A stretch of 64,000 nucleotides of DNA from assembly GCA_021521415.1 (NCBI GenBank), contig JAIQDT010007680.1, positions 33,826 to 97,825 of the forward strand, given 5' to 3'. A model generated the notes under the pieces. The model saw only the letters and a program-made list of their open reading frames with translations. It ran no database searches and had not been told where the DNA came from. This document shows positions 9,866 to 61,265 of this stretch, one piece after another (position 1 is the stretch's first letter; the number at the start of each line of letters is the position of its first letter). The translations under genes were made by a program, and so were the position numbers. Origin of the DNA: Bidens hawaiensis. Taxonomy: Eukaryota > Streptophyta > Magnoliopsida > Asterales > Asteraceae.

Positions 9866-10280
9866 TGTAAGGCCCCGTTACCGGAAGCCCTACTTTCGCG
9901 TTGGATTTACTCATAAACACAGTTCTAAATATCAGAGTTAATTAAAACATTTACACGGAATATAAAACTTTCATAAAACTTTGCATAATTCATAACTTGT
10001 CTCAAAACATTCTTTGTCTTTCAACATTAAAGCATTAAATTAAAACATCATAAGTCTTCAGATGCCAGACTCTCGTTCAGTGCCATGTGTCCCCTCAAGC
10101 GAGCTGCCTCATTCTACTCACCTGCGTGCATACTAAAAGTCAGCTACGCTGAGTGAGTTCTAGATAATCACATAATCATACCATTCACATAACATAATGT
10201 TCTTTCATTCATACTTTCATACTTTCATACTGTATTAACTTACTGTCATATCTTACGTTATAAAGAGCATTACGCCCTAC

Positions 10281-11958: not shown

Positions 11959-12400
11959 AGTCTTCCCTCCTTAAAGAGGTTTCGTCCCCGAAACCTAACT
12001 TATTCCCTATAAAAGGAAAACTTCTTATATTTACACGCTTTATTGAATCGCCTTCGCTTTCTGAGTTACCCTTCTTACTTCCGGCTTTGCAGTCATCGAA
12101 TGGTGGTCATGTGTTTTAGCTATTTAAGGTAGCTTGTCCATGAGACCCTCGATGCACCAAGACTCATCTCATCCTTCTAAGGGTTTCGATTAGTACTTTT
12201 AACACTATTGTCTAAATCAACATTTCACCATAACATAATAATCATTCTTAACCAAACTCAAAATAATTACACACCACAGATAAACATAAGTTTTAAACCT
12301 TAACACAAAACAAGTTCTTAAGCAAATGTAATTTAATAGAACCATTGCATGAGCAATTATTCCTTCATCAGGTGTTCCTCTCTGCAGTTTCCCAAAGTCT
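11959..12400 (-). other. Element A 3' internal non-coding region with polypurine tract
   Basis: On the minus strand the sequence ends TTCGGGGACGAAACC, then AAGGAGGGAAGACT directly before TGTAACATCCCG of the LTR. This is the purine tract that primes plus-strand DNA synthesis. The rest (12000-12400) has no recognisable coding sequence. Confidence 0.85.
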
Positions 12401-13240: not shown

Positions 13241-13625
13241 CGTAATCTAAAAGGGAAAACACAAACATCATCACTCAAGGAACTATCTAGTACAAGGATA
13301 GTAAGGCTAACAGGTAATAACAGTGGCCAGTTGTGATTAGCTGATCACGTTACTTTCCGTGTCCTATACACTTCCCTTTATGAGTCTATTTGTGCTGGTT
13401 CTACTTAAGCAGTTTGTCAAATCAAACAATCAATTATTCCTATCCCTGACGTTCTCATATCTTTCCTTTCTCATTAACATATATCATTTAATCATACACC
13501 TTACCTTTACTGATCTTGCCTGAGCGACACATGGCATTCTTGAACTGGCATCTTCTTTCCTTTCTTACTTAAATCCCATTTTCTGTTCGAGTCTAAGCAT
13601 GTAGGATGCTTAAATCTCTCGAACT

Positions 13626-13643
13626 TATGCTCTGATACCAACT
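13626..13643 (-). other. Element A primer-binding site
   Basis: On the minus strand AGTTGGTATCAGAGCATA directly follows the LTR end. It is complementary to the 3' end of initiator-Met tRNA, which primes minus-strand DNA synthesis. About 385 bp of leader separate it from the ORF. Confidence 0.93.
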
Positions 13644-15736
13644 TGTAAGGCCCCGTTACCGGAAGCCCTACTTTCGCGTTGGATTTACTCATAAACACAG
13701 TTCTAAATATCAGAGTTAATTAAAACATTTACACGGAATATAAAACTTTCATAAAACTTTGCATAATTCATAACTTGTCTCAAAACATTCTTTGTCTTTC
13801 AACATTAAAGCATTAAATTAAAACATCATAAGTCTTCAGATGCCAGACTCTCGTTCAGTGCCATGTGTCCCCTCAAGCGAGCTGCCTCATTCTACTCACC
13901 TGCGTGCATACTAAAAGTCAGCTACGCTGAGTGAGTTCTAGATAATCACATAATCATACCATTCACATAACATAATGTTCTTTCATTCATACTTTCATAC
14001 TTTCATACTGTATTAACTTACTGTCATATCTTACGTTATAAAGAGCATTACGCCCTACATTCCTCGAGTATTATTAGGGCTCGGTACCCTCCTTCCTCGA
14101 GTATTATTAGGGCTCGGTACCCTCTTTCCTCGAGTATTATTAGGGCTCGGTACCCTCCTTCCTCGAGTATTATTAGGGCTCGGTACCCTCTTTCCTCGAG
14201 TATTATTAGGGCTCGGTACCCTCCTTCCTCGAGTATTATTAGGGCTCGGTACCCTCTTTCCTCGAGTATTATTAGGGCTCGGTTCCCTCTTCGTTACCAT
14301 ACAACCATACATTATCATTTCTTTCTTTTATTATCTTTATCACGTTCATACACGTAAACATACATATCATACTTACCTTACACCTGGCGTTACAACCTGA
14401 CAGTACGTGCAATATCCGAAGATCGTTCACGTAACATCAAGCAATCATTCATACATATCATATCATTCACATAAGGCATACACTTATCTCGTAGGATAAG
14501 TGTATTAACAAACATATTGAGTATGCACACAGCCCCGAAAACATAACACATAAGGGGGCTAGAAACTCACCTGAATACGGTTACGTTCTCCGTTGATTGT
14601 AATTCCTTTCTTTAACTGGGCTCGGCTAACTGTATAATATTTACACATATCAATTAACTACTACTACCCGTTTTCAATAACTGCCTTAACACATTTCCCA
14701 TTAGGTTTTTAATTCATTTTAAAAAACGAACTTCGCTTCAGGCGAAGTTAAACCTTAGGCGAACTTGGAAACAACTTGGTTCTGGCTTGATTCGATCGAA
14801 TAGGAACACGTTCGATCGAATAGGAACACGTTCGATCGAATACAACACGTTCGATCGAATACAACACGTTCGATCAAACAGGAACACGTTCGATCGAATA
14901 GGAACACGTTCGATCGAATACAACACGTTCGATCGAATACAACACGTTCGATCAAACAGGAACACGTTCGATCGAATAGGAACACCGATCGAATACAACA
15001 TTCATTCGATCGAATACAAAACTCATTCGATCGAATGAGTTGGAGACCATTCGGTTGCTTCCCTATTCGGTCGACTGGACTTGTTCGATCTACGCATTCG
15101 ATCGAATGGACTGATTCGATCGACTGGTTCGATCGAATGAGTCTGGTTCGACTCCTTCAAGCTGGCGACGGAGAAACCCACGGGTTTTCCAGATTTTCCA
15201 GATTTTTGACCCAAAATCGACGTTTTTGACATGGAAATGCTCGGGATTGAAAGGGCTATCGATTCCTTGTACTTTTAAACACACAAGCTTGCATTTTGAC
15301 ACCAAAACAAGGCGGTTTTTGACCCGAAAACTCAAGTTACAAAAACGGGAGTTTTTGCTCGATTTGAGGTCGAAAATGGTTATGAAAACGGATGATTTTC
15401 AAGAGGGACTTACCAAAAACGATTAGGAACAAGATTGTGGACTCGGATTTGTGATTCGAGAACTTTCTCTCTCTAGTTTCTCTCTCTAGAATTGAGAGTG
15501 TTTGGGTGTGGGAGTGAAAGGGAGTTGGTGAAAATGGTGAAAGTGTCAAGAACTTTCGTTTATATACTACGGGTTTGGTTAGGCTCGGGTTGGCTTCCTA
15601 CGGGTCGAGACAGGCCGAGTTCATAAAATAACTAAGCCCAAGACCCGTTCCTTACTCGACATTAAATAACTAAAACGTGAAATTACTAAACATAACTTTC
15701 TTTTATTTATCATTATAAAAATTTCGGGATGTTACA
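13644..15736 (-). repeat. Element A 5' LTR
   Basis: This is the upstream LTR in element orientation and is identical in length (2093 bp) to the 3' copy, at an offset of 3778 bp. A TATA motif is at 15559-15568. The donor-like AGGTGAGT is at 14565-14572, the palindrome array at 14786-15040 and the 33-bp minisatellite at 14059-14290. Confidence 0.92.
15559..15568 (-). promoter_or_regulatory. Element A TATA motif
   Basis: AGTATATAAA on the minus strand lies about 170 bp inside the 5' LTR and is the best TATA candidate there. Transcription would start near 15535. The copy in the 3' LTR is at 11781-11790. Confidence 0.55.
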
Positions 15737-33617: not shown

Positions 33618-35728
33618 CATGTCTTCCACCTCATCAACTGTAAACGTCACACTGGCAACTCTGGCCGTAGCATGTCAGCTCGCATCACGAAGGAAATCTT
33701 GGAATCCCTTTCGACACTCATTTCCCAGCTCCAACCGTGAATGATGCTACCGCACCCATGAATCCAAACCCAACTGCTTGCTCCTTCAAGCAATTCATGA
33801 ATGCTAACCCAACCGATTACGTTGGAGCCGAGGGTACTACAAGCCTCTTCCAATGGTTCGAACATATGGAAAGTGTGTTTCTCCATTGGGCTTGTCGGAA
33901 GACCAAAAGACCACCTACACCTCAAGCGTCTTCAAATCAAGTGCCCTCACTTGGTGGAATGGTAAAAAGTACTCTCTTGGGGCTGAGGTTGCCATGGCTT
34001 TACCGTGGGACGATCTCAAGAAAACTCATGCTTGAAAGGTTCTGCCCAAAATATGAACTCTAGAAGTTGGAAGAGGAGTTTTGGAACTTGAAGCAAGAAG
34101 GTGGTGATAATACCGCTTACAATGATCGATTCCAAGAATTGAGCCTCCTCATCCAGCATATGGTTACTTCTTTGGAGCAGACCATTGAAAAGTACATCTC
34201 GGGTTTGCCTATGCAAATCCAAGATTCTGTTCTGAGCCATGACCCGAAAATCCTTCATGATGCCATCACACTAGCTGGTACCCTAGCTGAGAACCATGTT
34301 AAGGCTAGGACCTTGACGCGAAAAATTTACAAGAAACCAATAATAAGCCCACACCCGAGCCCACTAAAAAATCCAAGCCTGAATCCTCCAAGCACAACAA
34401 GCACAACAACTCTTCCCTTTACCATAACAACAAGAGAAAACCTAACTCCCAAAACTATGTCTTGGCCCAACCAGAAGCCCAACAAGCCCCTCCAAACAAG
34501 AAGCCCTACACTGGCCCGCAACCGTATTGCAACACTTTCCAATGCCACCATCCGGCTTAATCCACTTGTCAGGTGTGCGTAAATTGCCACCGGTTCGTCC
34601 ACCTTACCCAATATTGTCGAGAAGCATCCTGTGTGCAAGCCGCTCCACCGTAGTTCGCATCATCAAACCAAATCAACCGAGTCATTCCCCGTACTCCAAT
34701 CATTAACCCCGTTAGGGATTGCTACAATTACGGTGACCCAAATCAACTCCGCAACACGTGTCCTCGACTCGCTCAAGCCCACCAAGCCTATGTTGCACCA
34801 CAACCATACTACACCTCTCAAGCCTATCAAGTGCAAGCATACCAACCCTAAGTACCCCAACTAACGGCTCCTTTAACTCCTCAAGTCCAACCCATGGTCA
34901 TGCAAGCCTATCTGGCCCCTACTCCTCAAGCCCAACCCATGGTCATGCAGGCCTATCAAGCTCCAACACCTCAAGCTTTAACTTGTCAAACCCAAGCACC
35001 TCAAGGAACTCAAGGGAGAGTTTTCACCATCAATGCTCACCAAGCCCGTAACTGGAATGATGTGGTGAACGATACGTTTCTAGTTAATAAGCACCATGCT
35101 TCGGTATTATTTGATTCATGAGACGATATGAGCTTTATTTCCTTTGATTTTGAATACATACTTGATGTGCCCCGTAATAAATTATCTAAGCCCTTCACGG
35201 TAGAGATAGCTAACGGTAGTTCGATCACTATTAAATCCTTCATTCGGAATTTCATGCTTACTCTCAATGGTCAAAATTTCTCTATCGACCTTATCCCTAT
35301 GAAAATGGGTAGCTTTGACGTCATCGTTGGTATAGATTGGCTCTCCCTAAACCATGCCAAAATTCTATGTTTCTAGAAACTCATTCGAATCCCTGTCGAT
35401 GGGGGAGTGATTCTAAATGTTCCCGGAGAAAGACCATTCACAAAGCTACACCTCATGTCGTGCTTCGAAGCCCAACGTTACTTACGCAAGAATTATGTCG
35501 CTTTCTTAGGCCATGTAACCACAAAATCCGATGAAGAAAAGGAACTTTCCGATATCTCGATTATCCAGGACTTCCCTGAAGTCTTTCCTGATGACGTTTC
35601 TGGACTCCCTCCCGTCCATCAAGTGGAGTTTAGTGTTAATCTCATACCAGGAGCAAACCCCATAGCCAAAACACCTTACCGTCTTGCACCTTCCGAAGTG
35701 CAATAACTCTCCAACCAAATCCAAGAAC
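33618..35728 (+). pseudogene. Element C gag, protease and start of reverse transcriptase (broken)
   Basis: Pieces of a Ty3-gypsy chromovirus polyprotein lie in several frames. Capsid text occurs at 33737-34258 (FKQFMNANP, SSALTWWNG, then EFWNLKQEGGDN and YISGLP). A Gln/Pro-rich stretch with repeated PMVMQAY spans 34890-34980. The protease region is at 35090-35370, where the active-site motif reads LFDS followed by a stop, then SFISF and GSFDVIVGIDWL. The linker to reverse transcriptase is at 35407-35706 ([23 protein letters not shown] then a stop). At least five stops or frameshifts inactivate it. Element B interrupts the reading frame at 35733, and it resumes at 45071. Confidence 0.85.
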
Positions 35729-35733
35729 TCACG
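35729..35733 (+). other. Element B target-site duplication, left copy
   Basis: TCACG here and at 45071-45075 flanks element B exactly, showing that the whole unit sits in a single integration site in the reverse transcriptase region of element C. Confidence 0.9.
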
Positions 35734-36234
35734 TGTCACACCCGGCCCTGAGCGGCGGAAACAGCCGGGCGCGCGCGAGTGGGGATTGATAATTAAGCAC
35801 GGGCCATTGCAAACATTCAAAGTAAGATTTTCATTGCGCATGAAATGTTTAATACAAATACATTACATTGTTTAAAAATTACATAAAAACATCCAAGTAT
35901 AAAAACTGTTGAAGATTTCCACGCCGTATCCCCTTGCGCGGCGGGAACAACCACGCGCATCGAAGGGATAGAACTAAAATCTTCCAAAAAGCTAGTTTTA
36001 GATGTTCAGCGTGAGGTGCTCTAAGTGTGACTCCATGCGCTACCTAGTTATCTCCTGAAAGACACGTAAAAACATTTGAATCAGTATAAACTGAGTGAGT
36101 TCACAAGTTTTAGTAACTTGATAAATCGTATTGCATCATAATCTTGATAAAAATCATTCTGAAACATAATTCTGATAGCATCATTAAAACACATGCTTGG
36201 TAAAACATAGTTCTATCAACACATTCTGATAAAA

Positions 36235-36560
36235 TCGTCCCGCGGGTTACGCGCGAACATTTCTGGGAACTGTGCTCGTCTGTGTAAGTGGCGCTGCCAC
36301 TACGAGCGAAACAAGTAATACCGTCCCGCGGGTTACGCGCGGACACATCTGAAAAACCGTGCTCGTCTGTGTAAGTGGCGCTGTCACTACGAGCGAATAA
36401 TACCGTCCCGCGGGTTACGCGCAGACGTTGTGCCGGAAAACAAGGCGCTCGTCCATGCAAAGAGGCGCGACCCCTACGAGCGGGCTCAAACCCATAGTAC
36501 TGCCCCATGACCATACTAGGCACTCGTCCATGCAAAGAGGTGCGACCCCTACGAGTGGGT
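36235..36560 (-). repeat. Leader minisatellite of element B (left copy)
   Basis: Units of roughly 90 bp carry CGTCCCGCGGGTTACGCGC and GTGGCGCTGCCACTACGAGC, with a variant arm CATGCAAAGAGG. The mirror copy is at 44215-44575. Confidence 0.85.
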
Positions 36561-37779
36561 GGATCAAACCAGCAGTCCCTACCCTTAGAGTTCCAATGGT
36601 AAAGTGATCACTTACTCGAGTTCTAGCGCACATACATCGAAAACCTTAGATAACCGTTCGCATTGCTCATTATGAAATATAATTTAAACACATAATCGCT
36701 TGCATAGCTTGTAAGTATACCATGATAAAACATTATTTAAGTACGTGTCCCTCGCCCCGAAAACAGTTTAAAAACAGTGAAAACAACGAGAATAGGGGCT
36801 GTGAGACTCACCTGTGGTTCTTGTTAAGGGATTAATCGAGATTCGGGTTTTCTTGGTGTTGGCCTCGGAATTGAAGGTCTAGAATGCGATTAAATAACAA
36901 GAAGTATATATATTAAGATCAAGAATTAGGAGAATATAAGGGTTGGAAAGCAGATCTCAAGGTTATATTCTTGGCTTACCTGGTAACAGGATCGGAAACG
37001 AAAACAACGGATGCTTGGGAGATGATTAGTGCAAGTTGCAGTTCTTAAGAGAGAAGTTTGAAGTGTGTTTTGGGTGATAGTTTAGGTTACATATTTATAG
37101 GCAAACTCAAGGGAACACAATCCCTTGCTTTAGGGGATTGTAATCTTTTCATATCTAGGTGTAATGATGATAAGGTATGGAAATTATTATTATTTATTTA
37201 AAAGTGGAGTAGTGGATAAAAGATTTTGATTTGATTTGGTCAGGACATGCAGGTCTGGGGTTGGTGAGAATAGGGTGGCTGACAGTTGACTTTTCATGTT
37301 ACAGTGTGCTTTTTCAGGTACTTTTGTCCGTGTACAGTAAAAAGTGGAAAATCTCTGAAACACGCTACTGTTTCCTTTTGGGCGGGAGTAATCTCCTTAC
37401 GTCTGGAGAATAGACTAAGTGTTCTGTGCGTATCACTTTGTGCGCATAGCTTTCTGCTTGAAGGACATTTCTTTGCTGCGGGTAGGTGCGTAACCTTCTC
37501 GCAGTTAGGACATTGAGTTTCATTTATAGATTCTCCAGGTGGTCTTGGTATTTCAACATAGTGATCAGTTATGTTGAAGTCAATTCCATCTTGGAGCTTC
37601 AGACAAACTAGCTCTCAATGTTCCCGCCATGCGGGGAGGTTAGTTCCCTTCCGCACGCGCATAAACGATTTAGGATGCACCCGCCTTAGCATCATGCGGG
37701 ATGGTCAACCCATTAGACAACATAACGTTAAGGTACATGAAAACATAAAGCCAAAACATTCGCGCATGGCGCATATAAC

Positions 37780-37990
37780 ATATGCCCACGCTGGTTCTTA
37801 ACATGGCGCGCTCGCGCAGGGTGCACATAACAAATGCACGCGCTGATTCTAATATGGCGCGCTCGCGCAGGGCGCACATAACAAATGCACGCGCTGATTC
37901 TAATATGGCGCGCTCGCGCAGGGCGCATATAACAAATGCACGCGCTGATTCTAATATGGCGCGCTCGCGCAGGGCGCATATAACAATTAC
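37780..37990 (-). repeat. CG-rich 51-bp repeat in U3 of element B (left copy)
   Basis: Four full units, plus a diverged fifth, contain GCGCGCTCGCGCAGGGCGCA and ATGCACGCGCTGATTCTAAT. They lie upstream of the TATA motif in LTR orientation, where promoter elements would be. The mirror copy is at 42823-43040. Confidence 0.88.
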
Positions 37991-38048
37991 CTAATATTTA
38001 GGTTGATTACTTGGTTTAAGGGATTGGGAATTTACCGGGTGTCACATT

Positions 38049-38068
38049 GATTGGTATCAGAGCACTGG
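38049..38068 (+). other. Element B primer-binding site
   Basis: TTGATTGGTATCAGAGCACT directly follows the left LTR. The TTGGTATCAGAGC core pairs with initiator-Met tRNA. It follows the wrong end of the LTR (U3 end rather than U5 end). Confidence 0.9.
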
Positions 38069-38280
38069 TTATAGCGAACTAGGAAAAGAAGTTTTAACCT
38101 AGACTATAACCGTTGGGGAATCGCATGAAATATTTTTCAAAGAAAATATTTTCAAAAGAAACTATACACACACTTAGGAACACGGGTCACACAGTGTCTA
38201 GTGAATAAAGATAAAGAACATTATGTGCTCAGAGTAAATGCGCTAAGTTTAATATATTTTCATTCTCTTTTAAAGAGAGA

Positions 38281-41200
38281 ATGCCTCCAACTAAAGCCAA
38301 GGGAATTACCATGACACCCGAGGAACTCGCGGAAATAATCGCGCAAGCGATCGCGACACATGAGGCCAGCAAGGCCGAATCAAGTCAGGGTCGTCAGAAT
38401 GAGACCCCAGAACCCGAATCAGGAGCCTTGGACAAAGGATGCTCCTACAAGACATTCATGGCCTGTAAGCCTTGGCCATTCAAGGGTACCGAAGGGGCCA
38501 TTGGGCTCTACAACTGGATTGACAAGATGGAGACAGTTCTCTCCATTAGCGGATGTAGTGAGAACCAGAAGGTCCTTTACGCGACCTGCATGTTCCAAGA
38601 AGCAGCTTCATCTTGGTGGAAGCTTCAAGTGAAGACCTTGGGGCGAGAAGTTGCTCTTCACAAAACCTGGGAGGAGCTGAAGGAGATGATGATGAGAAAG
38701 TTCTGCTCTCGCGCAGAAATCCAGAGTCTGCAGCAGGAATTCTGGAACCACACCATGGTAGGAACGGATATCGACGCCTACAACAACCGGTTCAACGAGC
38801 TTTGCCAGTTGGTGCCAGACATGGCAAACACGGAGGAAAAGAAGATCGAGAGGTATATCTTTGGGTTACCTCCTGTTGTTAGGGTTCCGCTCAACGCCGC
38901 AGCGCCTCCAACCTTTGATGAGGCGGTAGCGCGGGCCATCACCCTTACAAGGGATACGGTCCATGCGGGTATGTTAACTACGCGCGGAATCGAGCAGCGA
39001 ACCTCTGATCCCAAGAGGAAGTGGAACTCTCACCACCGAGGGTCCGACTCCAAGCAACCACCGTTCAAGAAGCAGGAGAGCGTAAGGGCTTACGCGATCC
39101 AAGCCGCGGAGCCATCAAGGAAAGGATACAGCGGGCCTCGCCCATGGTGCAACAAATGCAAGTATCACCACGAGGGTGAATGCGCAAGAATCGAATGTGC
39201 CAAATGTGGCAGACCAGGGCACAAGACGATGAATTGCCGTGTCAGAGAAGCTGGAGCGAGCGACAACTGCTACGCATGCGGGAAGCCAGGGCATTTTAGT
39301 CGGGATTGCCCGCAAAAGGGAAACCAAGCTCGCGGGAGAGCTTTTGTGATCGGCGCGGGCGAAGCTAAAGAAGAGCCGAATGTGGTAACCGGTACGTTTT
39401 TGCTTAACGGCCATTTTGCATCTGTTTTATTTGATACTGGCGCTGACCTAAGTTTTATATCCGCTGAGTTTAAAAACTCCCTAGGCCTAGCAAGCAGTAG
39501 GCTAGACACGCCTTATACTATAGAACTAGCCAATGGTAGGCAGTTATGCGCGAACGAAAGAACTGAACAATGTGTAATAGTCATGGGAGGTCACGGGTTC
39601 AATATTAATTTGTTGCCAATAGACTTGGGAAGTTTTGACATTGTGGTAGGTATGGATTGGTTAGTCGAGAACCACGCGGAAGTTATTTGCCATGAGAAAC
39701 AGGTTCGGGTCCCACTGTTGAACGGAGAAACCTTGGTGATTCAAGGGGAAAGAAGGGGAGTTGCGGCGAAACTAATTTCGTGCCTAAAAGCGCGCAAGTG
39801 CCTAAGGAAAGGGTGCTACGCCTTCCTGGCGCATGTAGTAGAGAAGAAAGGAGATGAGCGAAGAATTGAAGACTTACCAGTAGTGCGCGAATTTCCAGAA
39901 GTTTTCCCTGAAGATTTGCCCGGATTACCGCCGCCGCGACAAGTCGAATTTCGTATTGATTTAGTCCCAGGAGCTGCGCCAGTAGCTCGAGTGCCTTATC
40001 GATTAGCTCCATCTGAGATGCAAGAGCTATCCAATCAGTTACAGGAACTATTGGATAAGGGTTTCATACGCCCAAGCTTTTCACCTTGGGGAGCTCCAGT
40101 ACTGTTTGTTAAGAAGAAGGATGGTTCTTTCCGGATGTGTATTGACTATAGGGAGCTGAACAAGCTGACAGTCAAGAATCGGTACCCCTTACCGAGGATT
40201 GACGACTTATTTGACCAGTTGCAGGGATCCAGTTATTATTCGAAGATAGATCTACGGTCAGGATACCACCAACTTAGGGTCCATGAGGAAGATGTGCCGA
40301 AAACAGCCTTCCGAACTAGATACGGCCATTATGAGTTCTTAGTGATGCCTTTCGGGCTAACTAATGCGCCGGCTGTGTTCATGGATCTGATGAACCGCGT
40401 GTGCAAACCATACTTGGACAAGTTTGTGATTGTGTTTATAGATGATATTCTGATTTACTCTCGGACCAAGGCCGAGCATGAGCAACACCTGAGATTGATT
40501 TTGGAATTGTTGAGGAAAGAAAAGTTGTATGCGAAGTTTTCCAAGTGCGAGTTTTGGCTTAGAGAAGTTCATTTTCTCGGTCACGTTGTAAACGAGAAAG
40601 GAATACACGTTGATCCTTCCAAAGTCAAGGCCATCGAAAACTGGGAAGCGCCAAAAACCCCAACTGAGGTGAGGCAATTCCTAGGACTAGCTGGCTACTA
40701 TCGACGCTTCATTGAGAACTTCTCCAAGATAGCTCTACCACTGACCGCGCTAACTCAGAAAGACAAGAAGTTTGTTTGGGGCGAAAATCAGGAAGCGGCA
40801 TTTCAAATGTTAAAACAGAAATTATGTAGTGCGCCAATTTTGTCTTTACCCGAGGGGACGGATGACATCGTCGTTTACTGCGACGCTTCACATCAGGGAC
40901 TCGGATGTGTCCTTATGCAGCGAGACAAAGTCATAGCGTATGCCTCGCGCCAACTCAAGACCAATGAAAAGAACTACACAACGCATGATCTGGAACTTGG
41001 AGCGGTTGTCTTCGCGCTAAAGATTTGGCGCCATTACCTCTATGGTACAAAGTGTATAATCTTTACGGATCACAAGAGCCTTCAACATATATTTGATCAA
41101 AAGGATTTAAACATGAGGCAACGAAGATGGGTGGAGTTGTTGAATGATTATGATTGTGAAATTAAGTACCACCCTGGAAAGGCGAATGTGGTAGCAGACG

Positions 41201-42723
41201 CGCTAAGTAGGAAGGAGCGAATAAAAACGCTACGAGTCAAGGCTCTAAGGTTGACCATTCGCGCAGATCTCTCTACCCGCATCCGAGACGCTCAGCAAGA
41301 AGCCTTGAAACCAGAGTTTGTTAAAAACGAATCCCTTGGGGGTATGATTAAGGATTTGGAGCTCAAAGAGAACGACACTCGGTATTTTGCTAACCGCATA
41401 TGGGTCCCTCTCAAGGGAGGATTGCGCGAGCAAGTATTAAACGAAGCTCACAAGACGCGGTATTCCGTACATCCTGGCGCAGACAAGATGTACCAAGATG
41501 TTAAAGCGCTGTATTGGTGGCCCAATCTTAAAGGCGCCATCGCGACGTATGTCAGTAAGTGCCTGACGTGTTCGAAGGTAAAGGCTGAATACCAGAAACC
41601 ATCAGGGTTGCTTCAACAGCCAGAAATTCCCATGTGGAAGTGGGAACAAATCTCTATGGACTTCATCACCAAATTGCCAAGGACACCTGGGGGTTACGAC
41701 ACGATCTGGGTTATTGTGGATCGGCTAACTAAGTCAGCGCACTTCCTGCCGATCAAGGAAACCGATAAGATGGAAAAGTTAGCCCGATTGTATATTCGAG
41801 AAGTAGTTTCAAAACATGGAGTCCCAGTGTCCATCATTTCTGATAGAGATAGTCGGTTCACATCAAGGTTTTGGAGATCGTTACAAGGAGCTCTAGGTAC
41901 TCGCCTTGATATGAGTACAGCTTATCATCCTCAAACGGATGGGCAAAGCGAGCGAACAATCCAGACATTGGAAGATATGCTACGCGCGTGCGCGATCGAT
42001 TTTGGAGGTAGCTGGGATACTCATCTCCCATTGGTTGAATTTTCTTACAACAACAGCTATCACACAAGCCTCAAGGCTGCGCCGTTTGAAGCTTTGTATG
42101 GGCGCAAGTGTAGATCCCCACTGTGCTGGGCTGAAGTGGGTGACAAGCAAATGACTGGTCCAGAATTGATCCAAGAAACAACAGACAAGATTTTTCAGAT
42201 ACGGGATCGCCTTAAGACAGCGCGCGACAGACAGAAGAGCTACGCAGATGTGCGAAGGAAACCGTTGGAGTTTCAAGTAGGGGATAGAGTACTTTTGAAA
42301 GTCTCTCCATGGAAAGGAGTCCCCCGTTTCGGCAAGCGAGGAAAGTTGAATCCGCGCTACATTGGACCATTTGAGATCCTGGAAAGGATCGGTCCGGTTG
42401 CTTATAAACTCCGTTTACCCGCCGAACTCAGTGGAGTTCATGATACGTTTCATGTGTCCAACCTCAAAAAGTGCTTATCTGACGAAACGTTGATTTTGCC
42501 GTTGGAAGAGATTCACATCGACAAACAGCTGCACTTCGTAGAAGAACCTATAGCAGTAACCGGTTGGAAAGAACAAAAGTTGCGCAGAAGCAAAATCAAG
42601 TTAGTAAAGGTTCAATGGAAATCAAGGCGTGGGCCTGAATTCACTTGGGAAAGAGAAGATCAAATACGCAAGAAATACCCACACCTCTTTCAGAGCATGG
42701 CTTCTGCCAGCAACATCTCCTAA
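38281..42723 (+). CDS. Element B gag-pol polyprotein (Ty3-gypsy chromovirus, intact)
   Basis: A single 1480-residue ORF encodes everything needed for particle formation, reverse transcription and integration. Capsid lies at about 55-235 (SSWWKLQ, YIFGLPP). Three zinc knuckles start at C290, C306 and C330, the first of the short C-x2-C-x3-H type. Protease is DTGA at 385-388. Reverse transcriptase has FIDD with aspartates 721-722. RNase H begins near YCDAS (D868). The integrase zinc finger starts at H1064, and its core has D1127, D1188 and E1224, a perfect DD35E spacing. [11 protein letters not shown] domain and a C-terminal chromodomain-like tail ([14 protein letters not shown]) follow. No stop or missing catalytic residue was seen. 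The ATG follows the primer-binding site by about 215 bp and has the expected spacing to capsid. It is intact, but the flipped left LTR leaves it without a normal promoter. Confidence 0.96.
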
Positions 42724-42757
42724 ATTTCGGGACGAAATTTGCTTAACAAGGAGAGAA
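42724..42757 (+). other. Element B polypurine tract
   Basis: TTTCGGGACGAAATTTG then AACAAGGAGAGAA ends directly at the right LTR (TGTGACACCCGG). The layout is the same as in elements A and E and marks the right LTR as correctly oriented. Confidence 0.9.
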
Positions 42758-45070
42758 TGTGACACCCGGTAAATTCCCAATCCCTTAAACCAAGTAATCA
42801 ACCTAAATATTAGGTAATTGTTATATGCGCCCTGCGCGAGCGCGCCATATTAGAATCAGCGCGTGCATTTGTTATATGCGCCCTGCGCGAGCGCGCCATA
42901 TTAGAATCAGCGCGTGCATTTGTTATGTGCGCCCTGCGCGAGCGCGCCATATTAGAATCAGCGCGTGCATTTGTTATGTGCACCCTGCGCGAGCGCGCCA
43001 TGTTAAGAACCAGCGTGGGCATATGTTATATGCGCCATGCGCGAATGTTTTGGCTTTATGTTTTCATGTACCTTAACGTTATGTTGTCTAATGGGTTGAC
43101 CATCCCGCATGATGCTAAGGCGGGTGCATCCTAAATCGTTTATGCGCGTGCGGAAGGGAACTAACCTCCCCGCATGGCGGGAACATTGAGAGCTAGTTTG
43201 TCTGAAGCTCCAAGATGGAATTGACTTCAACATAACTGATCACTATGTTGAAATACCAAGACCACCTGGAGAATCTACAAATGAAACTCAATGTCCTAAC
43301 TGCGAGAAGGTTACGCACCTACCCGCAGCAAAGAAATGTCCTTCACGCAGAAAGCTATGCGCACAAAGTGATACGCACAGAACACTTAGTCTATTCTCCA
43401 GACGTAAGGAGATTACTCCCGCCCAAAAGGAAACAGTAGCGTGTTTCAGAGATTTTCCACTTTTTACTGTACACGGACAAAAGTACCTGAAATAGCACAC
43501 TGTAACATGAAAAGTCAACTGTCAGCCACCCTATTCTCACCAACCCCAGACCTGCATGTCCTGACCAAATCAAATCAAAATCTTTTATCCACTACTCCAC
43601 TTTTAAATAAATAATAATAATTTCCATACCTTATCATCATTACACCTAGATATGAAAAGATTACAATCCCCTAAAGCAAGGGATTGTGTTCCCTTGAGTT
43701 TGCCTATAAATATGTAACCTAAACTATCACCCAAAACACACTTCAAACTTCTCTCTTAAGAACTGCAACTTGCACTAATCATCTCCCAAGCATCCGTTGT
43801 TTTCGTTTCCGATCCTGTTACCAGGTAAGCCAAGAATATAACCTTGAGATCTGCTTTCCAACCCTTATATTCTCCTAATTCTTGATCTTAATATATATAC
43901 TTCTTGTTATTTAATCGCATTCTAGACCTTCAATTCCGAGGCCAACACCAAGAAAACCCGAATCTCGATTAATCCCTTAACAAGAACCACAGGTGAGTCT
44001 CACAGCCCCTATTCTCGTTGTTTTCACTGTTTTTAAACTGTTTTCGGGGCGAGGGACACGTACTTAAATAATGTTTTATCATGGTATACTTACAAGCTAT
44101 GCAAGCGATTATGTGTTTAAATTATATTTCATAATGAGCAATGCGAACGGTTATCTAAGGTTTTCGATGTATGTGCGCTAGAACTCGAGTAAGTGATCAC
44201 TTTACCATTGGAACTCTAAGGGTAGGGACTGCTGGTTTGATCCACCCACTCGTAGGGGTCGCACCTCTTTGCATGGACGAGTGCCTAGTATGGTCATGGG
44301 GCAGTACTATGGGTTTGAGCCCGCTTGTAGGGGTCGCGCCTCTTTGCATGGACGAGCGCCTTGTTTTCCGGCACAACGTCTGCGCGTAACCCGCGGGACG
44401 GTATTATTCGCTCGTAGTGGCAGCGCCACTTACACAGACGAGCACGGTTTTTCAGATGTGTCCGCGCGTAACCCGCGGGACGGTATTACTTGTTTCGCTC
44501 GTAGTGGCAGCGCCACTTACACAGACGAGCACAGTTCCCAGAAATGTTCGCGCGTAACCCGCGGGACGATTTTATCAGAATGTGTTGATAGAACTATGTT
44601 TTACCAAGCATGTGTTTTAATGATGCTATCAGAATTATGTTTCAGAATGATTTTTATCAAGATTATGATGCAATACGATTTATCAAGTTACTAAAACTTG
44701 TGAACTCACTCAGTTTATACTGATTCAAATGTTTTTACGTGTCTTTCAGGAGATAACTAGGTAGCGCATGGAGTCACACTTAGAGCACCTCACGCTGAAC
44801 ATCTAAAACTAGCTTTTTGGAAGATTTTAGTTCTATCCCTTCGATGCGCGTGGTTGTTCCCGCAGCGCAAGGGGATACGGCGTGGAAATCTTCAACAGTT
44901 TTTATACTTGGATGTTTTTATGTAATTTTTAAACAATGTAATGTATTTGTATTAAACATTTCATGCGCAATGAAAATCTTACTTTGAATGTTTGCAATGG
45001 CCCGTGCTTAATTATCAATCCCCACTCGCGCGCGCCCGGCTGTTTCCGCCGCTCAGGGCCGGGTGTGACA
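42758..45070 (+). repeat. Element B right LTR, normal orientation
   Basis: It starts TGTGACACCCGGTAAATTCC and ends GGGCCGGGTGTGACA. The TATA motif CTATAAATAT is at 43704-43713, AGGTGAGT at 43991-43998, TTTTCGGGGCG at 44041-44051, the leader minisatellite at 44215-44575 and CTCACTCAGT at about 44705. Confidence 0.93.
43704..43713 (+). promoter_or_regulatory. Element B TATA motif (right LTR)
   Basis: CTATAAATAT lies 945 bp inside the LTR, followed about 35 bp later by a C/A-rich start-site-like region. It would drive transcription rightward out of the element. Confidence 0.55.
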
Positions 45071-45150
45071 TCACGGACAAGGTTTCATTCGCCCAAGTTC
45101 ATTTCCATGGGGCGCACCCGTCTTGTTTGTCAAGAAAGAAAGACGGTACT
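45071..45150 (+). pseudogene. Element C reverse transcriptase, continuation
   Basis: After the second TCACG the frame of element C resumes and reads through the conserved reverse transcriptase block before [10 protein letters not shown] (FVKK, then KDGT). It then stops abruptly at the LTR of element D. Only about 25 codons remain. Confidence 0.85.
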
Positions 45151-50034: not shown

Positions 50035-53000
50035 TGTAACACCCCGTAACCGCAGCGGAAACGTAAACGGGATGCAACAGACACCTCTGATATCAACCAC
50101 ATTGTTTATAAAGAAAACTGAATACATTAATATACTTCAAATTACGTTATCTCATATTTCATTACCGTCTAGGTGATACACACATCATACAATATGATAC
50201 ATAATTCTATTTAATATTATGTATCCTAACATCCCACACGCAAATCTTACACACATCAAGAACTTAGCACGTAAACAATCACTTCATCTTAATTGTACCT
50301 GAAAAGCCTGTGAGAAAACGGGTCAACTACGAATAGTTGGTGAGTTTCACAATTTGAGTAAACCATGATAAATCCATATCATAATATAATATTATCGATG
50401 TAATTATGCTGAGCCCACAAGTGAAACCTCTGTTAACCCAGTACTGTACCCGTACCGGGGGCAATGTTAACCCAGAAACACTTCTAAGGACATCTGGGGA
50501 CACTGTTAACCCAGTACAGTACCCATTCCGGGGGCAATGTTAACCCAGAAACACTTCTAGGGACATCTGGGGACACTGTTAACCCAGTACTGTACCCATT
50601 CCGGGGGCAATGTTAACCCAAAAACACTTCTAGGGACATCTGGGGACACTGTTAACCCAGTACTGTACCCATTCCGGGGGCAATGTTAACCCAGAAACAC
50701 TTCTAGGGACATCTGGGGACACTGTTAACCCAGTACTGTACCCATTCCGGGGGCAATGTTAACCCAGAAACACTTCTAGGGACATCTGGGGACACTGTTA
50801 ACCCAGTACAGTACCCATTCCGAGGGCAATGTTAACCCAGAAACACTTCTAGGGACATCTGGGGACACTGTTAACCCAGTACTGTACCCATTCCGGGGGC
50901 AATGTTAACCCAAAAACACTTCTAGGGACATCTGGGGACACTGTTAACCCAGTACTGTACCCATTCCGGGGGCAATGTTAACCCAGAAACACTTCTAGGG
51001 ACATCTGGGGACACTGTTAACCCAGTACTGTACCCATTCCGGGGGCAATGTTAACCCAGAAACACTTCTAGGGACATCTGGGGACACTGTTAACCCAGTA
51101 CTGTACCCATTCCGTACGATTCCCGTACAATCAAATATTTATAAATACAAGCAAATCCATGCGTTCAGTATGTACTTAAACATTTCAATAGTAACATGCT
51201 TTCCGCCCCGGGAAAATATTTAAAAACAATTCAGAAAAAGGGGCTCGTGAAACTCACCTTAGCACATGCAAGCAGTTAACAACAATCATTATCAGTTAAC
51301 ACGTCCAATCTGTAATATGATCCCTACGATCGTTATTATACAATTATAGTTTATATAATCTTTAGCCGTGTTAACCAGTACATCTGGGGACACTGTTAAC
51401 CCAGTGCTGTACCCATTCCGGGGGCAATGTTAACCCAGAAACACTTCTCCGGACTCAGATTGTGATATCGTTTAGAGTTCAATAGTCAAAATTACTACTA
51501 GTTTGTTTTCCCCGTTTTGCGTGCCTAGCACGGATATCCGATTTTACGTTTCAAAATGAGTTTGGTCACACACGACCCGAAAATAGTAGTTGAATGATAA
51601 TTTAATTAAAGTTGTGAAATTTGAACTCGGTTTAGACGCCCCGATTGGCCGCGGGACCCGTTTCCGTCTTTAGTTCACCGGAAACTGTTTTATCAGATAA
51701 AATTACCCAAATCATCCGAATTATTTTCGGATGATTTATTTTTACTTGTTTAACTCAGTTATATGAAAATAGTTCATTTTTAGTGTTTTTATACACCAGT
51801 CAGCTCGTTTAGGCGAGCTTTACCGGTTTACGCGTTTTAAGCTTTAAAAGTTTGTTTTTATTTTATTTTTAGCACAAATAATTATCCGTTTAGTCTCGGA
51901 TCTTGAAATTTTGTACAAATCACTTTTTGACAGTGGGGAATTTTATAAAAATATTTCCAGAATTAAGTTTTATATTTAAAATTTATTTATTTATTTTTAA
52001 ACACCATTTAAACACTAAATATGTCGTAAATACCAAACGACCTTAGAAAAATCCCAAATTTTTCCTGGATGTCCCTTGCCATCCACATAGTCCCCTGTAA
52101 TTTTTCCAGAACCAAAATCTATTTTTACATGCCATTTTCACTAAAACCGAGCTAGAAAACCCTAGAACTCGTTTAACACAAAAGCCTACTTAGGCTTCTC
52201 CAACTGACCTAAAATTTTGTGTGTGACTTTTACATGATATAAAAAGCTTATCTGAAATTTCCCAGAATTTTTCATGATATTTAACTATTTTTTACCATTT
52301 TTAGCCAAAACCAAGAATTAAATTCACCAAATATTCATCCTTTGTCCAAAAATTACCAAAAATTCACAGAACTCATATTTTCATGTATTTAACACCTCTG
52401 TAAAATTTCATGACCTAACTCTAAACGCACCACAATCTGTCCCAAAACACTCATAACCGAACATAAACCGAATATACCTTTTGTTTTCCGCCACTACAAG
52501 CTACAAACTCGTCTTTCCGCCTTATTTACAACTAAATACAGAACCTACAACCAACATACCACAATACCAAGCAAGTTACACTCACAATCAAGCCTCTTAC
52601 ACTATAGTTTCGGTTATTGTTTCAAAACTAAAGTTTAAACCGTAAAAATTCGTTTTTGGTTCGTTTAACTCCTTTCTTGGACCAAGATCCCTTGTATAAC
52701 CCATATACATCACTTGATCATGCAAGAATCGGTTTTCATCTTTGAAACCTCATTTTCTTGCAAATAAACTCAAGAAACGAAGATGGAAACGTAAATGACT
52801 CGATTTTTACCTCGGTTTTCTTGCTACAATTCCGGGTTTTTGGATCATAGAATGGAGAGGAGATTATGAATGTTGAATTGTTTGTGAAAAAAAATAAAAT
52901 GAATGCGGTGTAACCTCTTAATGCCGATCGGAATATGAGGGGGGTGGGGTGGGACCCACCTCTCCATTTCTAGCCACATGTTTGGATTCTCGAAATCCGG

Positions 53001-55246: not shown

Positions 55247-57871
55247 ATGTCGTCGATCAATATCTCCGATTTGGTCAAGATGGAGGTAGAAGCGGGGTCT
55301 GCCACTAAGGCCCCGAGGCTTATGAAAGGAACTGACTTCGTGGCATGGAAGGATAGATTCATCCAATACATCAAATACCAGGATGCCAAAATGTGGGTGT
55401 GCATCCAGGATGGATATATCTCTCCTACTATGCAATACGAAGGCCGTGAAGTAGTTAAGAAGTACAGCAAAATGGAGGACGAAGAAAAGAAAATGTACGA
55501 GGCCGAAAGCAAGGCCCATGCTGCGATAACAATGGCACTTCCTCAAGAAGTTCTCCATACGTTCCGAAAGTACACTTCTGCAAGAGAGCTTTGGGATGCT
55601 CTTGAAAATAGATTCGAGGGGAATGTGGGTATCCATGCATCGAAGGTAAAACTTTTGAAGACCCAGTTCTCCGTCTTCAAATTTTTGAAGAACGAATCGC
55701 TGGATGATATTATCACCAGATACTATCATCTAATAACAGAGCTTAGCAATTATTCGATTGCTTACCGAGAAGAAGAGATCGTTGAAAAACTTCTCGATGC
55801 TCTCCCACCGAAGTGGGAAATGTACACCGTTCTTATGAGGGAAGACAGAGACTTTCCTAATTATGATCTTGAAACGGCAGTGAACAAGCTCAGAACTTAT
55901 GAGCTTAATATGGTTCGAAAAGAAACACCTACAGATCAGATACAAGACCCTGGTATGTATGGTGCAAAGGTTAACTCAGGCTCAAGTTCAAAGCCTGAAT
56001 CTGCTGCTTATTACTCTAAAGGGGAGTCAGGCTCTGACTCGTCTCATGAAGGAAACGTTTCTGTAAACACGAATGGTGATGTATGTTTCGTTGCTGGAGG
56101 ATCTAGTACTTCAAAGCCTCAAGCATCCACAAGTAGTTTTTCTGCAAATGCATCAAGCAATAGTTATTCCAAGATGCCTATGAGTGTAAAATCTGCTGAA
56201 GAGCAGTTTGCAGTCTATGCATCATTTATTGCTTCCTATGAAAACTACATCCAGGGGAAGATTGTGGACCCTGCTGTTCTGGATGAGGATTATGACCAGA
56301 TCGATGCTGATGATCTGGAGGAGATGGATTTGCAATGGCAAATGGCCATGATAGTGAGGCGAGTCAAGCGTTTCATGAATAAGACGGGGAGAAAGTTTGT
56401 TGGTGGTCGGCCCGGGTTCGACAAGTCCAAAGTAAGGTGCTATAATTGTCAACAGTACGGGCACTTTGCCAAGGAATGCAGAAATGAGAGGGTTGAACGA
56501 GGACAAGGTCGACCTACACAACACTCAGGAGTTAACAGAGAGATAAATGCCATGTTGACCAGAGAGGCAGGAGAGTACAACTGGAATCAACGCTCAAGTG
56601 GTTCTGGTGAGCAAGCAAACATGGCTGAGTCTGAAGCTGAAGAATGTGAGAAGGTTGAAGAAATTGAGAAAGCAAATGAAGAAGAAACCGCTTTCATGGC
56701 AAATGACAAAGATAATCGCTCCGAGGTAAGTCCTAAAACTATTTGTACTAGTTGTGAGAATTTGTCTGAGCAACTTAAAACAATAACTGATCAGTATGTC
56801 CATTTAGATGCTGACTTTAAAACTATTAAAGAAGATCACCATTTTACGAAAGCAAGAGAAACGAGTTATAAAATTAAAATAAAAGCATGTGAAAAAGACG
56901 TTCAAAGCTTAAAAATTAAACTTGCTGAGAAAATTGAAATAATTGATCTTAGTTATGAAGTTTTGGAGGAAAAAACTAAAGTGATTGCTGATCGGGATAA
57001 ACAGATTGCTGACCACCAGGTAAAGGTGGTGGAACTGAACCGCAAACTTGAGCAGTTCAGGAATTCCTCGGCCATCCTTGATCACCTCGTGAGTGATCCA
57101 GGTACCTCTGCAAAGAGGGGAGGAATCGGATATCACGAAGTTCCACCACCCTTTAACCACAACTATACTTATAATCCAAGTGTTCAGAAATCTGTTGATT
57201 TCGAGGTTTCTCAGACAACTCCTATCAAGATTACAAGTGTTGAACCAAGTGTTAACTGTGGCGAAACAAGTTCGCCTGTTTCTAGTGTGAATATTTCTGT
57301 TTCAAGTCCAGTCTCATCAGATTTGGATAAGTTGTCCGAATCTGGTCAGACAAAAGAGAAGGTAGGTTTACCCACCGATGGAGATAAAAATGAAGTTTCT
57401 AAAAAGAGTTCTCCACTCAATCCGTACGTCCCACCTTATGTGAGACGAACGGCTGGTAACACTGCCTCTACATCCAAACCAACATTTGACAAGAAAATGG
57501 AGAGTCGATGTTGCTTTAGATGTAACAAGTTAGGACATCTAGTTGCAGATTGCCCTTTGAAACGGAGATTTAGAGATGTAAAGACAAATAAAAATGAGAA
57601 TAAGCGTCATTTTGTTCCTGCTAAAAATGAAAACTTTAAAAAATGCCAAAATATAACGAATTCAAGTTTTCATAAAAACCAACCTCATTTTTACAACCAA
57701 ACCTCAAGATATAACACTTTCAATTCTCAAAGGTTTGGAAGGCATTACACCCAATCTGCAAGGAGATACCCTAACAGGACTTACAGAAATTATCGAGTCT
57801 CTAACTTGAGAAAGCCAGGGTACGGGACGTATCGATCCAAGACCAATTGGTCTTGGGTCCCAAGATTCTAA
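55247..57871 (+). CDS. Element F gag (copia, SIRE-like, long)
   Basis: The ORF is 874 residues, much longer than a minimal copia gag. Residues 20-230 are the UBN2-type capsid region ([36 protein letters not shown]). A zinc knuckle C-x2-C-x4-H-x4-C is at 398-411. Residues about 500-625 form a long charged coiled coil ([10 protein letters not shown] to LNRKLEQF). A second knuckle ([14 protein letters not shown]) sits at 756-769 and a basic tail ends at VPRF. The ATG follows a run of pyrimidine-rich acceptor-like sequence (TTTTTCCAGG, TTTTTGCAAGG). The pol frame overlaps the end by 25 bp in the -1 frame. The protein forms the particle and binds the genome. Confidence 0.92.
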
Positions 57872-57891
57872 CTCTTTGTTTTATTGTGCAG

Positions 57892-60330
57892 GAACAGTTG
57901 AACAGGGCTGCAAACAATCTTTGGATTGTAGATAGCGGCTGTTCCAGGCACATGACATGCAACAAACACTTGTTGCAAGACTTAAAACCTGTTCAGGGAG
58001 CTAGAGTTAGTTTTGCTGGTGAAAGCGGAGGAAGGATTACCGGTAGAGGAACTGTGTCGAATGGGAGAATGACACTTGAAAATGTAAACTTTGTGGAGGA
58101 ATTAAAGCACAATCTGCTGAGTGTGTCGCAGATCTGTGATAAAGAATACACTGTCCATTTCACTAAAAATGAAGCGATTGTATTGAAGCCTGGTTTTCAT
58201 ATACCAGAAGAATGGATAGTAATGAAAGCTCCACGTGAAACGAATACATACGTGATGGATATGAGGTCTACTGAAATGGCCACCGGAGAATCTTGTTTAA
58301 TGACAAAAGCAAGCGAATCAGAATCAGAATTGTGGCACAGGAGAATGGGACATATTCATCTTCGTAAGATGAACTTCATTGTCAAAAATGGGCTTGTGAT
58401 GGGCATTCCCTTAAAGAGTTTTAACTTTGAAGATAAATGCATAGCGTGCAAGAAGGGAAAGCAACACAAGAAAAGCCATCTCACCAAGACGATCAACTCA
58501 ATTGCTGGTACTCTAGAACTACTTCATATGGATCTCTTCGGTCCGGTGAATGTACAAAGTCTAGGTGGTACTTCTTACTGCTTGGTGATAACTGATGATT
58601 ACTCGCGATACTCGTGGGTATATTTTCTGAAAACGAAAGACGAGACGACTCAGATGGTGAAGAATCTAATTACAAAAGTCGAGAACGTCATGAGTAAATC
58701 AGTTAAATTCATCAGAAGCGACAATGGGACAGAGTTCAAGAACTTTGAGATGGAAATCTTTTGTCTTCGGAAGGGTATTGAGCATCAATACAGCGCTCCG
58801 TATACTCCACAACAGAACGGAGTAGCTGAAAGGAAGAACCGAACGTTGATTGAAGGAGCCAGAACTATGCTGGCAGACTCAAAGCTTCCTGTGATGTTCT
58901 GGGCTGAAGCAGTTGCTACAGCCTGCTATGTTCTGAATCGGGTGTTAACCGTTAAGAGACTTGGAAAAACCTGTTACGAGCTTATGCACGGAAGGAAGCC
59001 CAACTTGTGCGGTCTTGAACCTTTTGGGTCTCCTTGTTCGATTTTGAAGACTAATTCGAAATTTGGTGAAGTAGCTGATGAGGGAATCCTAGTCGGTTAT
59101 GTTGTTGGGACTCCCAACAGACGGGTCTTCAATACGACAACTTGCAAGGTGGAGGTGGTTTGTAACACCGACATTACTAGTTACCAACCGCCAAAACCAA
59201 GCAATGGACCTGCTGAGCTGTTTGACTATGTTAAACTTTTTAAGTCGTTTAACGTACCTACTTTGGAAATTTCTGAAGAAGACGAAAGAGCAGTGACGAA
59301 GATGATTTTTGATGAGGAAGAGGAGGTAGTGCAACATCAGATGACAGAAAAATCTCAGCCTTCCACATCAAACCCTATCGATACCCCTGCGGCCTCAACT
59401 GAAGATGAGTTTATTAATCCTTTTCACTCTCAGCCTGAAACTACCATAGATGAGATCTCTTCAAACTTGGAAGACAATTTGCATGTCGGTGCTGTTCCGA
59501 CCACGAGAATTCACAAAGATCACCCATTGGAGAATGTTATAGGTGATGTGTCCTCTAGTGTACAAACCAGAAGTAGCTTGAATGAGCACACCTGTGTTTA
59601 TACAAGCATTAAAGATACAGGTATCATGAACGAATGTTTGTACTCTTGCTTCATAAGCCAAGTCGAACCGAAGAATTATCAAATGGCTTTAAAGGACAGC
59701 TCGTGGGTCGAAGCCATGCAAGAAGAGTTGGCTCAGTTCGAAAAAATGGAAGTTTGGACTTTGGTTGAAAAACCAAAGAATGTGCATGCTATAGGCACGA
59801 AATGGGTGTTCAAGTGCAAGAGAGATGAAAAGGGGATTATCGTGAGAAATAAGGCGAGGCTGGTTGTTAAAGGTTTTAATCAACAAGAGGGTATTGACTA
59901 CAATGAGGTTTTCGCTCCTGTTGCCCGGTTAGAAGCGATTAGATTGTTTTTGGCGTTTGCTGCATCTAAAAAGATGAAGGTGTTTCAGTTGGATGTGAAG
60001 AGCGCGTTTCTTAACGGGAAAGTTGATGAGGTTGTGTTTGTTGAGCAACCTCCGGGTTTTCCTGACCCAGACTTTCCGGATCACGTATACAGGTTGAGCA
60101 AGGCGTTATATGGGTTACATCAGGCACCTCGTGCCTGGTATTCAACGTTATCGGACTACTTGCTGGAAAATGGTTTTGACAGAGGATTGATTGACAGTAC
60201 GCTGTTTGTGAAGAGAGAAGGATGTGACTTCTTACTGGTTCAAGTCTACGTGGATGATATCATTTTTGCTGCATCAAGAGTATCCATGTGTCAGGATTTT
60301 GAGGCTGTCATGAAGAACGATTCGAGATGA
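57892..60330 (+). CDS. Element F pol, first part: protease, integrase, reverse transcriptase
   Basis: The open frame reaches back to 57847, but protein similarity starts after the acceptor-like TTTGTTTTATTGTGCAG that ends at 57891, in frame. Counting from 57847, the protease DSG has D29. The integrase zinc finger starts at H164, and the core has D229, D292 and E328 with 35 residues between the last two. Reverse transcriptase runs from about WVEAMQEEL to YVDD (D803-804). The order protease, integrase, reverse transcriptase is that of Ty1-copia. The frame stops at 60330 a few codons after YVDD because of a one-base indel in the A-rich stretch near 60314-60318. The normal copia sequence continues in the next frame. 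Confidence 0.9.
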
Positions 60331-61201
60331 GTGCTATGGGTGAACTAACCTTCTTTCTAGGATTGCAGGTTGATCAGAAGAAGGATGGGATGTTCATTCA
60401 TCAAACAAAGTATGTTCATGATGTGCTGAAGAGATTCAAGATGGAGGACAGTTCTCCATATGACACCCCAATCTGCGTCAATCACAAATTGGGCGCTAAA
60501 TCAGATGGTGACGCAGATGTGGACCCTACTCTGTATCGGGCGATAATAGGTTCATTAATGTATTTAACTGCTTCTAGGCCCGATATAATGTTTTCTGTTT
60601 GTCTTTGTGCTCGTTTTCAGGCAAACCCAAAGGAATCTCACATGAAAGGTGTGAAGAGGATTTTGCGGTATCTTAAGGGCAAGCCGAAACTAGGGTTGTG
60701 GTACCCAAAGGGAGGAGACGTTGAACTGGTGGCGTATACAGATTCTGATTATGGTGGCTGTAATCAGAGTCGGAAGTCAACAACAGGAGGCTGTCAGTTT
60801 CTTGGAGGAAGATTAGTTTCCTGGCAGTGCAAGAAACAGACATCAGTTGCAATTTCAACATGCGAAGCTGAATACATGGCAGCATCCAACTGCTGCTCTC
60901 AGGTTTTGTGGATTCAGCAACAATTGCGCGACTATGGTCTGAATTTCTTACTTACTCCTATTTTAATTGATAACACTGCCGCCATCTCAGTAATTAACAA
61001 TCCCGTGAAGCACAGTAAAACTAAGCATATTGACATTCGCCATCACTTCATACGGGATTGTGCTGAGAAGAAACTAATAAAGATCGAAAAAGTTGATACA
61101 CTTGAAAATTTTGCTGACTTGTTTACAAAAGCGTTTGATAAATCCAGATTTCAAAACCTAATTGAGCTAAACGGGATGATCAATCCGAGTAACCATGTCT
61201 T

Positions 61202-61246
<45 letters not shown>

Positions 61247-61265
61247 ATGGGTCATTTTTGCTTAA
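60327..61265 (+). CDS. Element F pol, second part: thumb and RNase H (frameshifted)
   Basis: The 312-residue frame begins with [15 protein letters not shown], the sequence that normally follows YVDD by about 35 residues in one continuous copia pol. RNase H shows [22 protein letters not shown] and the terminal [11 protein letters not shown]. The stretch [13 protein letters not shown] is the usual pol end. After about residue 293 an A-run (61208-61245) encodes a run of about a dozen lysines and then six residues, so the authentic stop may have been changed by A-tract expansion. The ATG overlaps the previous stop but is unlikely to be a real start. Confidence 0.88.
61208..61245 (+). repeat. A homopolymer at the pol 3' end
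   Basis: About 38 consecutive A bases lie at the end of the pol frame. It could be a slippage-expanded A-tract or sequencing error-prone. A second A-run followed by TA repeats lies at 61969-62050. Confidence 0.9.

Follow-up and report, generated by a model that had tools for sequence, protein, structure and literature searches.

Organization of the locus

The DNA analysed here, called the window, is a 64,000-nt stretch from the assembly of Bidens hawaiensis (contig JAIQDT010007680.1, C7680:33826-97825). It carries a Ty3-type retrotransposon with an open gag-pol frame, in which the two long terminal repeats (LTRs) are inverted: the reversed one is the 5' (left) LTR. The features of the element and of its insertion site, with the basis of each in brackets, are as follows:

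33779..35733, plus strand: insertion host, the decayed remains of an older Ty3-type element (gag, protease and the beginning of the reverse transcriptase) (tblastn)
35729..35733, no strand: target site duplication TCACG, left copy (border sequence)
35734..38046, minus strand: 5' LTR, inverted; outer U5-type end TGTCACACCCGGCCC, inner U3-type end CCGGGTGTCACA (arm alignment)
38047..38048, plus strand: TT footprint, the complement of the AA preceding U3 at the purine tract (against 14 other junctions at the primer-binding site)
38049..38051, plus strand: spacer GAT between LTR and primer-binding site, standard for the family (junction comparison)
38052..38063, plus strand: primer-binding site TGGTATCAGAGC (sequence)
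38281..42723, plus strand: gag-pol open frame, 1480 amino acids, with capsid, CCHC, protease, reverse transcriptase, RNase H and integrase (Pfam and motif patterns)
42748..42757, plus strand: end of the purine tract AAGGAGAGAA, its final AA adjoining U3 (junction comparison)
42758..45070, plus strand: 3' LTR in native orientation, with CTATAAATA at LTR position 947 in sense (purine tract adjacency, TATA-like box)
45071..45075, no strand: target site duplication TCACG, right copy (border sequence)
45076..45140, plus strand: continuation of the host reverse transcriptase, one base short: DK, then 19 residues in another frame (joined flanks)

The two arms, 35734-38048 and 42756-45070, are reverse complements from end to end, with six substitutions and no gaps in 2315 bp (99.74% identity). 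This agrees with an earlier, sequence-only reading of the locus, which had described the left LTR as the reverse complement of the right one with about six substitutions. The LTR proper measures 2313 bp on each side (left, 35734-38046; right, 42758-45070), and the inverted repeat extends 2 bp inward beyond each LTR: TT at 38047-38048 and AA at 42756-42757. Position 38048, given earlier as the end of the left LTR, is correct for the inverted repeat but includes two non-LTR bases (TT) if the LTR proper is meant. The same two bases modify the statement that the primer-binding site (PBS) and the purine tract adjoin the expected internal sides: both are present there, but with two extra bases on the PBS side.

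Each LTR is bounded by 12-bp terminal inverted repeats with a single mismatch, at position 4. As read before, this mismatch reveals that the left copy is flipped, and it does so at both ends of the left LTR. The LTR ends of the element are TGTGACACCC...GGGTGTGACA. In the left LTR, the U5-type end lies outside and the U3-type end faces the PBS; hence, it is the 5' LTR that is reversed. On the right side, the purine tract adjoins the TGTGACACCC of the LTR, as in other copies. The right LTR also contains the TATA-like box CTATAAATA, which matches in sense at 9 of 9 bases at LTR position 947 and in antisense at 7 of 9 at best. Such boxes are weak in the other LTRs tried, and the box is a support for the orientation rather than a proof. 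The assembled junctions read CACA|TTGATTGG on the inner side of the left LTR and TCACG|TGTCAC on its outer side, and the window contains no N.

Coding core and classification

The PBS TGGTATCAGAGC, presumably complementary to the initiator methionine tRNA, and the purine tract GGAGAGAA are both present. The 1480-residue frame, already reported as intact, was confirmed to be open, and pattern matches identified the protease DTGA and reverse transcriptase (RT) FIDD motifs, two CCHC motifs, an HHCC region and DD35E. The Pfam match to the integrase core remains below the cut-off (28.7 vs. 32.6 bits); the integrase is also represented by its zinc-binding domain and DD35E. The order protease, RT, RNase H and integrase, with conserved residues, is that of a Ty3-type LTR retrotransposon, as are the PBS, the purine tract and the 5-bp target duplication; only the direct LTRs are missing. 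No Pfam chromodomain was detected in the frame at E ≤ 0.001. Its C-terminal tail resembles what we take to be a group II chromodomain, and the clade is presumably that of the Tekay/Del-like chromoviruses.

Among the 120 protein matches listed (7990 scored), 115 stand under genus names that we assign to the Asteraceae, four belong to other plants and one is unnamed. Rfam and tRNA scans of the window gave no match each. No relative was found in viral contigs searched by protein (no match to a pattern, and 247 stretches in a second search) and by two DNA patterns (45 stretches and 1 stretch), and a plasmid collection searched with the LTR gave no match. Genome contigs yielded four relatives (L001-L004), and in a protein comparison of 50 loci only these four matched. 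They are Ty3-type elements on contigs that bear the names of bacteria (Mycobacterium, Streptomyces, an uncultured Trichormus metagenome-assembled genome and Labilibacter). They are probably eukaryotic contamination, and as relatives they are useful solely for showing the usual element ends.

A single insertion with sister LTRs

The element interrupts the RT gene of an older, now decayed Ty3-type element, to which tblastn matches of the 120 retrieved proteins extend from 33779 to 35730. When the flanks are joined with one copy of TCACG, they read QELTDK, followed by 19 residues in another frame (one base short), which continues the RT motif of the older element; joined with two copies, the alignment loses DK. 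A dispersed repeat starts at ~45150, beyond this continuation. In all three other copies of the family with both outer ends in view, the target duplication is also 5 bp long. The continuity of the host RT motif supports a single insertion, as proposed when the inverted LTRs were first placed within one TCACG duplication. A second allele was not found: the right flank matched itself at 100% and 39 other listed places at ≤85% (40 of 2224 candidates scored).

The six differences between the arms were compared with the LTR segments of other copies (21-27 per site, overlapping loci removed). At three sites, these carry the base of the right arm, and at the other three that of the left arm. In addition, at 2 of 2202 sites the two arms have a base in common that is absent from 27 other segments. 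The shared private variants and the even split show that the arms are sisters from one reverse-transcription event, after which both have changed to the same extent. If 1e-8 substitutions per site per year is taken as the rate, the insertion is ~130,000 years old (Poisson limits 48,000-282,000). Two nested insertions in opposite directions are ruled out by the single target duplication, the host motif continuity and the shared private variants.

Two extra bases at the PBS junction

The spacer before the PBS is GAT in all 14 distinct other junctions read (single junctions in L052 and in each of L059-L070, plus another in L067; L056 and L057 repeat L069 and L070). Only the present copy has TTGAT. 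The additional TT is the complement of the AA found between the purine tract and U3 in 14 inner junctions: of the 24 LTR starts in L059-L070, all 14 inner ones follow GAGAA, and flanking DNA lies before the 10 outer ones. In retroviruses, unintegrated DNA carries two bases such as AA ahead of the TG of its U3 end, and integrase removes them. The reversed LTR was thus probably joined through an untrimmed U3 terminus. The window alone had suggested a microhomology of 5 bp (AATGT) where the left LTR meets the core, an idea that was dropped once the normal copies showed the spacer GAT.

Occurrence in the genome

The plant's own assembly (3.47 Gb, 15902 contigs) was searched, including the search for further inverted-LTR copies that the sequence-only reading had suggested. 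The normal junction U5|GAT|PBS occurs 3196 times (1589 + 1607) at ≤3 mismatches, and a backward control pattern not at all. The reversed junction occurs once, here, at the same tolerance, and again once when matched exactly with any spacer of 0-12 bases. These patterns cover one family and would miss more diverged copies. With the LTR as a probe, 2129 candidates were obtained, of which 40 were scored; these include 13 same-contig pairs. In 12 of them, both LTRs lie on one strand, ~6.4-7.1 kb apart, and a single pair, the present element, is inverted. An inverted design of the whole family is ruled out by these 12 direct pairs among 13 in the 40 scored places, and by the ratio of one reversed to 3196 normal junctions.

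Other arrangements were seen in the family. L066 and L067 are tandem LTR-core-LTR-core arrays, in which the purine tract precedes both LTR starts in view; in L067, spacer and PBS follow both LTR ends. L055 and L058 are apparent solo LTRs with the 5-bp duplications ATGAA and CATAC. Within the window, a nearby element on the minus strand (9866-15736) served as a control: its 2093-bp LTRs are direct, with one difference, and are flanked by the duplication ATATA. Its sole listed frame of at least 250 amino acids is a zinc-knuckle frame of 279, and the element is very young and apparently non-autonomous.

Origin of the inverted LTR

Given inverted LTRs in a single insertion, an extra event beyond reverse transcription is needed, as had been concluded earlier. 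It is likely that the 5' LTR was attached backwards, by its untrimmed U3 end, to the spacer-PBS end of the complementary DNA (cDNA), and that this molecule was then integrated with two U5-type ends. The cDNA would have been aberrant, with the U3 terminus 5'-AATGTG... joined to the GAT-TGGTATCAGAGC end instead of a normal LTR completion. The strand that continues the minus strand past the PBS reads 5'-AATGTG...GTGTGACA, with the polarity and the 5' end expected of plus-strand strong-stop DNA. For this reason, a strong-stop route is preferred: plus-strand transfer would have failed, followed by wrong-way template jumping from end to end or by end joining of the strong-stop DNA (or duplex). End joining may act on such cDNAs. 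The junction ATC|AATG, without microhomology, is compatible with both. The resulting linear DNA, with U5-type ends on both sides, could then have been inserted by integrase into the RT gene of the older element with an ordinary 5-bp duplication. On its outer side, the left LTR ends exactly at the U5 terminus, and the use of two U5 ends by integrase follows if the cDNA reading is right. We infer the misjoining, the AA as the mark of a cDNA end, the strong-stop route and this use of two U5 ends. The complete sequence of steps, in which misjoined strong-stop DNA is inserted by integrase with two U5 ends, leads to 2.3-kb inverted ends in one step and leaves the AA as a trace of the cDNA, is slightly favoured. 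The inverted-LTR copy is probably a rare replication accident and not a new kind of element.

Several points weigh against this origin. The TT may be filler, two bases with a 1 in 16 chance of matching, and the plus-strand start at AA|TG is presumed for this family by analogy with retroviruses. For the template-jump variant, ATC|AATG offers no microhomology. If the strong-stop DNA had been extended into the tRNA, it would bear a PBS tail past U5, and this tail must have been absent or trimmed. Moreover, there is only a single event, and its structure, known from the assembled contig and not from reads, may come from a chimeric assembly.

The other origins differ mainly in how they account for the TT. 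Two of them, suggested by the sequence-only reading, would join the trimmed TG end, without AA/TT, and are disfavoured for that reason. In one, a normal insertion would have been followed by an in-place flip of the 5' LTR, through recombination between the 12-bp inverted ends of this LTR. These ends, with their one mismatch, are available, and inversions between terminal inverted repeats with a diagnostic mismatch are documented for ISWpi1 of Wolbachia (PMC3004938). Such a flip predicts CACA|GAT, but CACA|TTGAT is seen; an integrated 5' LTR has target bases at this position and not AA, and the AA required sits beside the purine tract. The position-4 mismatch is, furthermore, wholly flipped, which would confine the exchange to the outer three bases, whereas two Wolbachia cases in the same source showed conversion instead. 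An in-place flip is therefore unlikely. In the other, integrase would have joined one end of the cDNA, that of U3, to the LTR/PBS boundary of the same molecule before the product was inserted. Self-integration is able to give two-LTR inverted circles, according to a passage in PMC4751563. However, its strand transfer uses a trimmed end and would not keep the AA, and it normally duplicates internal target bases and gives a circle; no duplicated bases are present at the join, and an exact hit on the LTR/PBS boundary would be a matter of chance, which leaves this origin very improbable.

An assembly or read artefact, also raised earlier, would mean that the left LTR has the direct orientation in the plant and that a chimeric read or gap filling turned it round. 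The family has many copies (3196 normal junctions), the contig is just 97.8 kb long and the structure is known from the assembly alone. On the other hand, the window is free of N, the ends have only 12 bp in common, which is short for an overlap, and the junction bears a structured 2-bp footprint. The left arm has three private substitutions, as has the right arm, and shares two private variants with it, so it is not the LTR of another sampled element. The artefact is accordingly held to be quite unlikely. The last candidate is a chromosomal copy event (a template switch in replication, or conversion) by which the left LTR was replaced by an inverted right LTR together with two purine-tract bases. 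It would account for both the AA and the similarity of the arms, but it calls for another exact junction, at the left TCACG|TG, and the left flank, TCACG, does not correspond to the right flank in reverse complement. Such an event has a very low probability. The aberrant cDNA described above is retained as the likely origin.

Consequences and other features of the window

From the orientation of the TATA-like box, both promoters point outward, as stated before. Neither of them faces the core. For this reason, the copy is probably unable to produce a normal R-to-R genomic RNA, and the open frame is probably idle unless it is read from outside. The fact that this reversed junction is the sole one found in the assembly fits a copy without normal genomic RNA. 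The case is a one-copy accident and not an active lineage. Flipping of the core, if any, would leave the junction types unchanged.

The locus offers a sequence signature for a reverse-transcription accident that is seldom caught as a whole insertion, with a rate-like figure of one reversed vs. 3196 normal junctions in one assembly. If the proposed origin is true, it indicates that concerted integration is possible with two U5 ends and that inverted-LTR units can arise in one step. The signature, the family spacer and the purine-tract bases beside a reversed LTR, is searchable in any plant genome.

Elsewhere in the window, a tandem array with a 73-bp unit (50430-51114) comprises ~9.4 copies with 97% matches. 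A Copia-type gag/pol region (55247-61265) is distributed over three consecutive frames (874, 792 and 312 amino acids), with the RT split between the last two. At 6851-7122, there is a near-palindromic segment of 270 bp that resembles a miniature inverted-repeat transposable element.

Comparison with known systems

No plant case of an inverted-LTR element was found in the open-access literature, mostly screened by listing. In the plant paper PMC9950645, 'LTR inversion' denotes, where it appears in the passages concerned, an assembly index and not an element; the relevant passages of PMC8786324 (locust, 'inverted LTR') and PMC11044480 (tomato circular DNA) contain no such element. The element resembles plant Ty3-type LTR retrotransposons in its gag-pol order, PBS, purine tract, 5-bp duplication and LTR ends TGTGACACCC...GGGTGTGACA, and differs from them in the inverted 5' LTR and in TTGAT, which replaces GAT.

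Retroelement genes between inverted LTRs are also typical of DIRS-type elements: in DIRS-1, the LTRs are inverted by design and a tyrosine recombinase is encoded, as outlined in PMC5633606. Unlike DIRS, the present element has integrase motifs and a TCACG target duplication, and no recombinase family is among its Pfam matches. The inversions of ISWpi1 at its terminal inverted repeats (PMC3004938) are the source of the mismatch test used here. In both systems, a unit with near-identical inverted ends is flipped within one target duplication; in the ISWpi1 cases described, the mismatch was lost by conversion, whereas here it is fully flipped and accompanied by two extra bases.

A probable precedent for the accident itself exists in HERV-K. 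The element treated by Hughes and Coffin (2002, Genomics 80:453), in a title with the words 'resembles a DNA transposon', is reportedly an HERV-K element with inverted LTRs. That work is cited for the mechanism of LTR inversion in a description of HERV-K124 (PMC3625200), an element with truncated, inverted LTRs and two internal regions; LTR inversion is termed rare there. Both HERV-K124 and the Bidens element are cases of LTR inversion in an endogenous retroviral element. Unlike HERV-K124 as presented in that source, both LTRs are whole here, and the normal copies of the family expose the 2-bp footprint.

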